Below are positions 45 to 16,073 of a DNA stretch of 64,000 bases, one piece after another. Where the stretch lies: NCBI RefSeq assembly GCF_000025605.1, contig NC_013894.1, positions 357,529 through 421,528 of the forward strand. The letters run 5' to 3'. A model generated the notes under the pieces. It saw only the letters and a program-made list of their open reading frames with translations, searched no databases and was not told where the DNA came from. Every line of letters begins with the position of its first letter. The stretch's first letter is position 1. A program made the translations under genes and the position numbers. Source of the DNA: Thermocrinis albus DSM 14484 (lineage in GTDB: Bacteria > Aquificota > Aquificia > Aquificales > Aquificaceae).

Positions 45-71
45 TTCTTCACGGCCACTACAGATTATAAT
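45..71 (+). promoter_or_regulatory. Promoter of the ppa operon
   Basis: A perfect TATAAT lies at 66-71 with a weak TTCTTC-like -35 at about 45-50 (short spacer). The predicted start site, near 78, coincides with the first base pairs of the structured leader at 80-166, so the RNA element would be the 5' end of the ppa mRNA. Inference from motif only. Confidence 0.5.
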
Positions 72-79
72 AATCCTCT

Positions 80-166
80 GGGTGTCCAAATGGCGCCTGC
101 CGGGTCTCTGGACACCCATAAAGGGCGCGTTAAAAATAGCCCGGCCCCGGTATGGTAGTATCCGGG
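80..166 (+). ncRNA. Structured leader RNA, copy 1 (candidate riboswitch-like element)
   Basis: Stem P1 is 8 bp: GGGTGTCC (80-87) with GGACACCC (110-117). Its large loop holds GCGCC (93-97) and GCCGGG (99-104). These can pair downstream with GGCGC (124-128) and CCCGGC (140-145), giving pseudoknots or two alternative folds. A hairpin CCCGG/CCGGG (146-150/162-166) follows directly, then the ribosome site and the ppa ATG at 181. A second copy with different P1 sequence but the same loop and tail blocks precedes nuoB on the minus strand. I do not recognise the class; a cis-regulatory role is inferred. Confidence 0.7.
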
Positions 167-180
167 AAGGGACACACCCC

Positions 181-717
181 ATGAGTGTTAGGGATCTACC
201 TCCAGGAAAGAACCCTCCCGAGGACATATACGTGGTGATAGAGATACCTCAGGATAGCTCCATAAAGTACGAACTGGACAAAGAGAGTGGTGTCCTCTTC
301 GTAGATAGGTTTCTCTTTACCGCCATGCATTATCCCTTTAACTACGGATTCATACCTCAGACCTTAGCAGATGATGGTGATCCTGTAGACGTGCTGGTGG
401 TGTCCCGGTATCCGGTGGTTCCGGGTAGCGTCCTCCGTTGCAGGCCCATAGGAGCCCTTCAGATGAGGGATGAGGAAGGTGTAGACACAAAGCTGATAGC
501 GGTCCCCCACACCAAACTGGACCCTACTTACGACAGAGTCAAGACGTTGGATGATCTTCCTCCTGTGGTTCTTGATCGTATAAAACACTTCTTTGAACAC
601 TACAAGGAGTTGGAACCGGGCAAATGGGTGAAGGTGGAGGAGTTTAAGGGTGTCCAGTTTGCTATAGAGGAGATAAAGAAGGGCATAGAGAACTATAAAA
701 AGAAAGCGGGTGGATGA
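181..717 (+). CDS. ppa: Inorganic pyrophosphatase (family I)
   Basis: Hydrolyses cytosolic pyrophosphate to two phosphates, pulling biosynthetic reactions forward. The 178-residue product has the family I core: YELDKESG near residues 33-40, the DGDPVDVLV metal-binding motif, and later acidic residues of the active site. Size fits the usual 175-180. The ATG at 181 is chosen because the frame upstream runs through the structured leader and lacks family similarity. The 3' end overlaps kdsD by ATGA, so ppa-kdsD-dxr is probably one operon. A leader RNA at 80-166 may control it. Confidence 0.95.
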
Positions 718-15407: not shown

Positions 15408-15944
15408 TCAGACCTCCACCTCTTGAGGAAGCAACCCTTGTCTCTGCATATCCCTTTTGAACTCTTCAAAGGCTCTATCGTACTTTCTCACTCCCTGTTC
15501 CTTTATCTTCTTCTGAAGTTGAAGTATACCGTAAAGGAGGCCCTGTGGGTGGGGAGGACAACCGGGTATATACACATCCACAGGTATTATCCTATCCATA
15601 CCCTGCAAAGTAGAGTAGGTGGGGAAGGGTCCACCGGCGGATGCGCATCCTCCCATGGTTATACACCACTTAGGGTCGGGCATCTGCTCCCATATAAGTT
15701 TAAGCATGGGAGCCACCTTGTTGACCACCGTTCCGGCCACTATGAGGAGATCTGCTTGTCTTGGAGAAGCCCTGAAGATGACTCCTAATCTGTCAAGATC
15801 AAAACGAGAGGCGGCAGCGTGCATCATTTCTATAGCACAACAAGCTAAGCCTATGGTCACAGGCCACAGGGCGTTTCTTCTACTCCAACTGAGTAGTTCT
15901 TCCACTGTTGTAAGTACAAATCCGTTAGAGTTCAACATAACCAT
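15408..15944 (-). CDS. nuoB: NADH-quinone oxidoreductase subunit B
   Basis: Holds the N2 [4Fe-4S] cluster that reduces quinone. Tandem Cys in [13 protein letters not shown], then [11 protein letters not shown] and PGCPPHP give the four ligands. 178 residues. It is preceded by an unusual 180-nt gap from nuoA that holds the second copy of the structured leader RNA, with a hairpin ending 16 nt before the ATG. Expression may therefore be set separately from nuoA. Confidence 0.95.
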
Positions 15945-15960
15945 GACACCATCCTGGTTA

Positions 15961-16045
15961 CTCCGGCCTAACGACCGGAGTGCCGGGCTATTTATATAGC
16001 GCCTTTACACGTTGGGGAGAACCCGGCAGGCGCTATTTCCCCAAC
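15961..16045 (-). ncRNA. Structured leader RNA, copy 2 (before nuoB)
   Basis: Read on the minus strand: P1 is GTTGGGGA/TCCCCAAC (16045-16038 with 16018-16011, 8 bp). Loop blocks TAGCGCC (16035-16029) and GCCGGG (16027-16022) are complementary to GGCGCTA (16003-15997) and CCCGGC (15987-15982). A hairpin CTCCGG/CCGGAG (15980-15961) follows, then nuoB. Loop and tail sequence match copy 1 before ppa, while P1 and the last hairpin differ in sequence but keep pairing. This covariation is the reason to call it an RNA. Confidence 0.7.
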
Positions 16046-16049
16046 CACA

Positions 16050-16073
16050 GCTCCCGCCCCAGGAAACGGGAGC
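16050..16073 (-). other. GC-rich hairpin between nuoA and the leader RNA
   Basis: GCTCCCG/CGGGAGC, 7 bp, just 5' of the leader RNA on the minus strand. No U-run follows, so it is not a clear terminator. It may attenuate read-through from nuoA, or belong to the leader structure. Copy 1 has no equivalent. Confidence 0.4.

Follow-up and report, generated by a model that had tools for sequence, protein, structure and literature searches.

The stretch of DNA analyzed here (the window) comprises 64,000 nucleotides of the Thermocrinis albus DSM 14484 genome (NC_013894.1, positions 357,529 to 421,528). It carries two related RNA elements, each placed just 5′ of a protein-coding gene (Table 1). Copy 1 (80–166, plus strand) precedes ppa, and copy 2 (15961–16045, minus strand) precedes nuoB. 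A preliminary description of this DNA, made from the letters alone, had located both copies correctly and had placed them immediately before the starts of these two genes, which NCBIfam models confirm (starts at 181 and 15944). As had also been noticed, P1 and the last hairpin, P4, differ in sequence between the copies and yet pair in both (8 bp and 5 bp in copy 1, 7 bp and 6 bp in copy 2). The shared loop and tail blocks, earlier recognized as complementary, form two pseudoknot helices that we term T1 and T2.

Table 1. Positions of the leader RNA elements and neighboring features in the window
Feature	Position	Strand	Sequence or description	Basis or remark
−10-like box	66–71	+	TATAAT	Sequence; P1 of copy 1 begins 8 nt later
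Copy 1 helix P1	80–87 / 110–117	+	8 bp, GGGTGTCC / GGACACCC	Sequence
Copy 1 pseudoknot helix T1	90–131 (93–97 / 124–128)	+	5 bp, plus A90–U131	Crosses P1 and T2
Copy 1 pseudoknot helix T2	99–105 / 139–145	+	GCCGGGU / GCCCGGC	Crosses P1 and T1
Copy 1 A-rich loop	132–138	+	Interval between the T1 and T2 3′ strands; consensus ACAAATA, nearly invariant	Alignment
Copy 1 hairpin P4	146–150 / 162–166	+	CCCGG / CCGGG	Abuts T2 directly
Copy 1 right junction	167–171	+	Purine-rich AAGGG, SD-like remnant	GGAGG precedes the start codon in empty orthologues
ppa	181–717	+	Inorganic pyrophosphatase, 178 aa, 3′ of copy 1	NCBIfam NF002317, E 1.5e-83
nuoB	15408–15944	−	NADH-quinone oxidoreductase subunit B, 178 aa, 3′ of copy 2	NCBIfam NF005012, E 1.1e-70
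Copy 2 stem 1 loop pseudoknot	15953–16063	−	CCTGG (16063–16059) / CCAGG (15957–15953)	Sequence
Copy 2 hairpin P4	15961–15980	−	CTCCGG (15980–15975) / CCGGAG (15966–15961)	Sequence
Copy 2 pseudoknot helix T2	15982–16027	−	GCCGGGT (16027–16021) / GCCCGGC (15988–15982)	Sequence
Copy 2 pseudoknot helix T1	15996–16036	−	8 bp, ATAGCGCC (16036–16029) / GGCGCTAT (16003–15996)	Sequence
Copy 2 helix P1	16011–16045	−	7 bp, GTTGGGG (16045–16039) / CCCCAAC (16017–16011)	Sequence
Copy 2 stem 1	16050–16073	−	GCTCCCG (16073–16067) / CGGGAGC (16056–16050), loop TTTCCTGGGG	Sequence; extra TnpB-omegaRNA-like domain

The ppa leader of the relative G003, TATAATATTGCTCTCGGAGGAGTAAAGATG, accounts for the start of copy 1 only 8 nt past the −10-like box. 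In G003 the ppa orthologue reads TATAATATTGCTCTCGG/AGGAGTAAAGATG (slashes in such sequences mark junctions here and below); the element is absent, and the distance from the −10 box to the Shine–Dalgarno (SD) sequence is similar. Judged from these positions, the copy 1 leader should make up nearly all of the ppa 5′ UTR.

Copy 2 has an additional domain that escaped the preliminary description. This hairpin, stem 1, is also found in copies linked to TnpB genes in other genomes, and the pairing of its loop with CCAGG is the counterpart of the guide-adjacent pseudoknot of TnpB omegaRNAs. The nuoB start lies 8 nt past this CCAGG. Among the copies of the T. albus genome, stem 1 and its pseudoknot are kept only here.

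A family of triple-pseudoknot leaders

When the complete 1.50-Mb genome (1,500,577 bases) was searched by BLASTN with copy 1, 26 places matched, and a covariance model built from them gave 35 strong matches in the same genome, with E values from 1e-26 to 2e-15 at worst. The element had been described as having two copies. Both are real, but their number was greatly underestimated.

The members of this family follow a common plan. The 5′ half consists of the 5′ strand of P1, AA, the 5′ strand of T1, U, the 5′ strand of T2, and four nucleotides. The 3′ half continues with the 3′ strand of P1, ∼8 nt, the 3′ strand of T1, the ACAAATA loop, the 3′ strand of T2, P4, GTAAnnAGG, and the start codon. 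P1, T1, and T2 cross one another in the order ABCABC, which makes the RNA a triple pseudoknot followed by a hairpin. T1 and T2 constitute a classical H-type pseudoknot with a first loop of one nucleotide and an A-rich last loop, and P1 ties the middle loop back to the 5′ flank.

Covariation had been claimed for the helices, and the larger family bears this out. Among the T. albus copies, both sides are changed at 9 of 23 pairs, with 49 such cells compared with 11 in shuffles. For an independent measure we took 94 distinct copies, none of them from T. albus, which were kept out of the structure drawing and whose alignment was fitted to P1 and not to T1 or T2. In this set 17 of the 23 pairs covary (353 cells), and the covariation score is 0.491; sliding the structure by 1–3 columns gives no more than 0.122. 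Together with covariance-model E values down to 1e-26, this score excludes a chance origin of the repeats.

The three helices differ in how strongly the foreign copies support them. P1 is paired in 98.5% of cells in an alignment that was itself fitted to P1, and both sides are changed at all eight of its pairs. T2 has 97.7% paired cells and six covarying pairs of seven. T1 is weaker, with 85% pairing and outer pairs that are often G·G or U·U. The main evidence for this helix is a G–C/C–G switch at one pair, seen in T. albus and foreign copies, together with single flips such as that in L124. In this divergent copy from G019, the usually invariant CGCC/GGCG of T1 is flipped to GCGGG/CCCGC with pairing intact.

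From the joint conservation of the three crossing helices we infer that they would form simultaneously. The earlier suggestion of either pseudoknots or a two-state switch holds in its first part, whereas a switch is disfavored because the three helices are retained together in the same copies. The class had been called unrecognized, and our Rfam comparison agrees: at gathering and permissive thresholds, the window, the copies, their relatives, and the TnpB loci gave no relevant match. A small ribozyme of the HDV-like, twister, or pistol type was also considered and set aside on the same Rfam result and on topology, which we take to be unlike that of these ribozymes.

Each of the 35 copies is bounded on its 5′ side by the preceding gene or a promoter. 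A start codon is found on the same strand in all 35 cases, ∼22–44 nt past the 72-nt core; at L003, L006, L014, L021, L024, and L051 it was picked by eye among in-frame candidates. NCBIfam scans place the leader before translation genes (ribosomal proteins S11, S18, S20, S21, L25, and L32; infC and tsf) and before rpoA, rho, two hfq genes, ftsH, ppa, nuoB, ndk, trxA, glyA, metE, and ilvC. Subunits of 2-oxoacid:ferredoxin oxidoreductase, HdrB-like and HdrC-like proteins, and others complete the set. Several downstream proteins belong to no NCBIfam family at the threshold used, and thiG (L025), for which no model passed, was named by sequence alone. No pathway shared by the 35 genes emerged from this naming. 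The set appears to lean toward core, presumably highly expressed genes, and its mixed composition led us to reject autoregulation by ribosomal proteins.

Eleven cores located before unrelated genes are 94%–99% identical and bear differing P4 hairpins, so simple recent transposition would be insufficient and recombination would be needed. P4 is nearly alike on differing T. albus cores at L014/L017, L011/L025, and L004/L009/L015. This reassortment of P4 and core points to recombination between copies.

Filled and empty sites in related genomes

Twelve gene starts, namely those of the HdrC-like and HdrB-like genes, rpoA, and nine more, were compared with their orthologues. All twelve show an insertion polymorphism in which T. 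albus is filled and relatives are empty. The HdrC-like and HdrB-like genes are element-free in 15 of 15 relatives examined. For rpoA, the site is empty in the Aquificaceae relatives for which the region 5′ of the gene was readable and also in G026, G028, and G032, and an ancient conserved rpoA leader was rejected on these grounds. The rpoA copies of G000 and of G030, G036, and G038 are probably separate gains.

The nine further genes were each inspected in three relatives. All but one of these 27 sites are empty, and in 24 of the 26 empty ones the start codon is preceded by a canonical GGAGG. The single filled site is that of rho in G007, which has a copy of its own. At the sites tested, the element in T. 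albus replaces the GGAGG of the relatives, leaving purine or GG remnants on the left and a weaker AGG on the right. The thiG junction, TTAAGGAGG/GACACC..GTAAAGAGG/TGTGGACATG, is an example.

One case among the relatives of the order suggests vertical conservation. In family f3, a compact leader is retained in several genomes (L072, L073, L078, and L146) at the same gene, whose product bears a TAT-like signal (SRRDFLK).

Distribution and association with TnpB transposons

A covariance-model search for further copies, as the preliminary description had advised, covered 41 genomes of the order. The RNA is present in 25 of them, this one included, with 1–19 copies in each of the others. The same search found none in six other genomes of the genus. 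Outside the order, the matches listed by an exact pattern scan include Caldanaerobacter, Thermoanaerobacter, Thermosediminibacteraceae, Tepidanaerobacteraceae, Caldicoprobacter, Caldisericum, and Thermodesulfobacteriaceae, as well as metagenome-assembled genomes (MAGs) of Desulfobacterales, Deltaproteobacteria, and Anaerolineae. The copies of Thermoanaerobacter, Caldanaerobacter, and other such genomes mostly have stem 1. Compact copies lacking tnpB stand before start codons in Firmicutes, Thermodesulfobacteriaceae, Desulfobacterales, and an Anaerolineae MAG (L279, L290, L292, L310, and L323). The exact pattern is absent from viral contigs, and a viral source was rejected.

We distinguish class A copies, which are compact and have no tnpB, from class B copies of relatives, which carry the extra hairpin (stem 1, for example AGTTCCTGTACTTGGTGCAGGGACT) directly 5′ of P1. 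There are ∼20 class B copies in relatives, and most are traversed by a long reading frame, at whose 3′ end they lie. This frame is of the TnpB family (TIGR01765 and TIGR01766 above the cutoff, NF040570 below it). Like an omegaRNA, class B lies across or beyond the 3′ end of tnpB and ends at the right end of the insertion sequence, which is not the case for the 35 T. albus copies. TnpB transposons with this RNA core at their right end occur in Aquificota and in thermophilic Firmicutes. The class B stem 1 loop, CTTGG or CCTGG, is complementary to CCAGG past P4. This feature recurs in copy 2 and is absent from copy 1 and most other T. albus copies. The comparison identifies the class B module as the right end of a predicted TnpB guide-RNA (omega) scaffold, composed of stem 1, P1/T1/T2, P4 (equivalent to stem 4), and CCAGG, with the flank in the guide position. 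One copy, L166 in G039, belongs to a complete IS607 element, in which a TnpA of the MerR-HTH plus serine recombinase type lies beside TnpB; the other class B copies have TnpB alone or a fragment.

The ends of these transposons lie within SD sequences. Class B left ends read GGAGG/TTAACAACAGTTG, with GGAGG in ∼18 of 20 as counted by eye. In the closely related genomes G015 and G022, flgC is empty in the former (..AATAAAGGAGGTGTAAATTATG..) and filled in the latter (..AATAAAGGAGG/TAAAAACAG..tnpB..RNA..TTGACCAGG/TAAATTATG..). The same pattern is seen at flgD, with the breakpoint at GGAGG/CCAGG. These filled and empty pairs establish that the transposon splits the SD from its start codon, and they reveal insertion at GG with no long target duplication. 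The right end, ..ACCAGG, places an SD-like AGG ∼4–11 nt before the host ATG. IS607 elements recombine at GG (PMC10711439; PMC4058570), and IS607 TnpBs use the TAM AGGAG or GAGGG (PMC11061315). Insertion at GG and the GGAGG left ends, as read from our alignments, agree with this published behavior.

The idea that a bare transposon had entered leaders already in place was rejected, given that the class B copies of a genome share the RNA through CCAGG and differ only beyond it. In L161 and L076 (G022), P4 is enlarged by a long inserted stretch, and the end is still ..CAGTTTGGTTGACCAGG.

Within the genus, other members of this TnpB protein family are accompanied by omegaRNAs in which stem 1, a short hairpin, and the strand for the pseudoknot are present and P1/T1/T2 is missing. 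These sister elements (L196–L215, from the genus and other Aquificaceae) have short omegaRNAs with the stem 1 loop GAGGCTG and a small hairpin, a right end AACAGCCTC, and a left end with matching GAGGCTGTTC. In the T. albus genome itself, no serine recombinase and no TnpB of the class B family were found. An unrelated IS605-type TnpB of ∼450 aa does occur there in five copies (L414–L418; C1:331569, 350814, 638908, 725064, and 797004), one of which adjoins a Y1 transposase. Their right ends, ..CGCATCTTTGATGCGGGGTAGTTCAC, are unlike the leader RNA, and mobilization by this IS605 element was rejected.

Origin of the leaders

The T. albus leaders are structured RNAs homologous to this transposon scaffold, and they are inserted at SD sequences. 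We consider it likely that the compact copies are derivatives, lacking tnpB, of the right ends of SD-targeting IS607-type elements and that they have been kept as leaders since the SD depends on them. The triple-pseudoknot fold would first have been selected as a TnpB scaffold. A transposon inserting at the GG of an SD GGAGG would rebuild an SD-like site with its right end, and the short copies would be nonautonomous derivatives of such ends. After insertion, tnpB would be dispensable, whereas the right end would be retained because the ribosome-binding site of the gene now depends on the 3′ end of the element. Retention of the self-contained fold would leave the SD unpaired and insulated from upstream sequence. 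The direction from transposon end to leader is favored because of the nuoB intermediate and the patchy, recent gains.

Several observations stand against this origin. Class A lacks the class B left end; its left end is P1 itself and not TTAACAACAGTTG. Plain internal deletion of class B cannot produce the class A left end, because the class B left-end sequence is absent. What the two classes have in common is the right end, P4..GTAAnnAGG, and the T. albus copies do not preserve both ends of a parent element. Moreover, the genome lacks the recombinase and the TnpB concerned, and many of its cores are closest to class A copies elsewhere rather than to class B.

The opposite direction is conceivable, namely that an older host leader acting in translation or stability was captured by an IS607 TnpB transposon as a right end that keeps the target gene expressed. 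The sister TnpBs retain stem 1, stem 4, and the pseudoknot without P1/T1/T2, and the triple pseudoknot could be an add-on because omegaRNAs of the same family lack it. The spread of compact copies over several families and phyla, and the many T. albus cores that are nearer to compact foreign copies than to TnpB-linked ones, also fit capture. However, the copies at the loci tested are recent and patchy rather than ancient at fixed genes, and compact copies sit exactly at the transposon insertion position. Stem 1 and its pseudoknot without tnpB at nuoB are what transposon decay would be expected to leave. We regard capture as unlikely. A function in trans is less probable by a wide measure. Compact copies could serve as guide RNAs with which a TnpB-family protein is directed by the host SD-ATG, either for retention or for TldR-like repression; the conserved scaffold module, the right end in the guide position, and the TAM-like GGAGG at empty sites are compatible with such a role. 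Yet most compact copies have neither the stem 1 nor the pseudoknot that TnpB scaffolds need, no class B-family TnpB is present to use them, and a filled site has no intact TAM beside the guide match.

The preliminary description favored a metabolite-sensing riboswitch, to which we now give almost no credence. A position in 5′ leaders, covarying helices, and an unpaired, conserved ACAAATA would suit such a class. SAM-II and preQ1 aptamers contain an H-type pseudoknot whose loop is A-rich, and the T1/T2 arrangement may be likened to them. Nevertheless, the leaders are not associated with genes of one pathway, and no common ligand logic unites ribosomal proteins, rho, hfq, ilvC, nuoB, and trxA. 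Orthologous genes of relatives are without the element, near-identical copies precede unrelated genes, and neither a terminator nor a conserved alternative helix that would sequester the SD was seen. The same RNA is also part of TnpB transposon ends, and identity with a mobile repeat was an outcome that the description itself had named as refuting the riboswitch.

The leaders may nonetheless act in cis on translation or on the stability of the mRNA. More speculatively, and with the balance of our opinion somewhat against it, the scaffold of an SD-targeting transposon may have become a shared cis element, deployed as 35 leaders on core genes across the genome after loss of the transposon genes and serving to recruit ribosomes, to set mRNA stability, or to provide growth-linked control.

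Comparison with known systems

The finding is an unreported type of TnpB guide-RNA scaffold, the triple pseudoknot, together with scaffold-like mRNA leaders that form an unusual set. No earlier description was found in the main texts of the open-access papers searched, and a survey of Aquificales noncoding RNAs (PMC4227106) has no recognizable entry for the leader RNA in the sections covered. A transposon family that targets the ribosome-binding site itself, and whose guide-RNA scaffold right end rebuilds that site, offers a way for insertion in the leader of an essential gene to be tolerated. It also outlines a concrete path by which a selfish guide RNA could become the leader of a host mRNA, along which neutral scars and a new layer of translational control can now be told apart by experiment. 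A triple-pseudoknot scaffold from thermophiles could also be useful for thermostable TnpB tools.

TnpB omegaRNAs possess a stem 1 whose loop forms a pseudoknot with a guide-adjacent strand, and a stem 4 before that strand (PMC10097598); by this comparison, P4 of copy 1 occupies the position of stem 4. Class B resembles the omegaRNAs or reRNAs of ISDra2 and IS607 (RAGATH-18) in its location at the tnpB 3′ end, which is the right end of the element, in its stem 1 loop pseudoknot and stem 4 hairpin, and in the AG-rich TAM (AGGAG or GAGGG) at the left end (PMC11061315). It differs in that P1/T1/T2 takes the place of stems 2 and 3, and the T. albus copies differ further in lacking tnpB and mostly stem 1. 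The RAGATH-18 covariance model gave no match at E values up to 1 (cmscan, permissive threshold).

Serine TnpA and TnpB in one copy (L166) and GG at both junctions are shared with IS607 transposons, whereas consistent insertion inside the SD and a right end that supplies a substitute SD are not. As in IStrons (PMC4227781), a TnpB-type element is combined with an RNA feature that lets the host tolerate the insertion. However, no group I intron or splicing was seen, and tolerance would stem from the rebuilt ribosome-binding site. Like MITEs and REP elements, the leaders are short, dispersed, and noncoding, with many copies and no transposase gene. Unlike them, they keep a constant strand and spacing before start codons, and their RNA covaries over three crossing helices.
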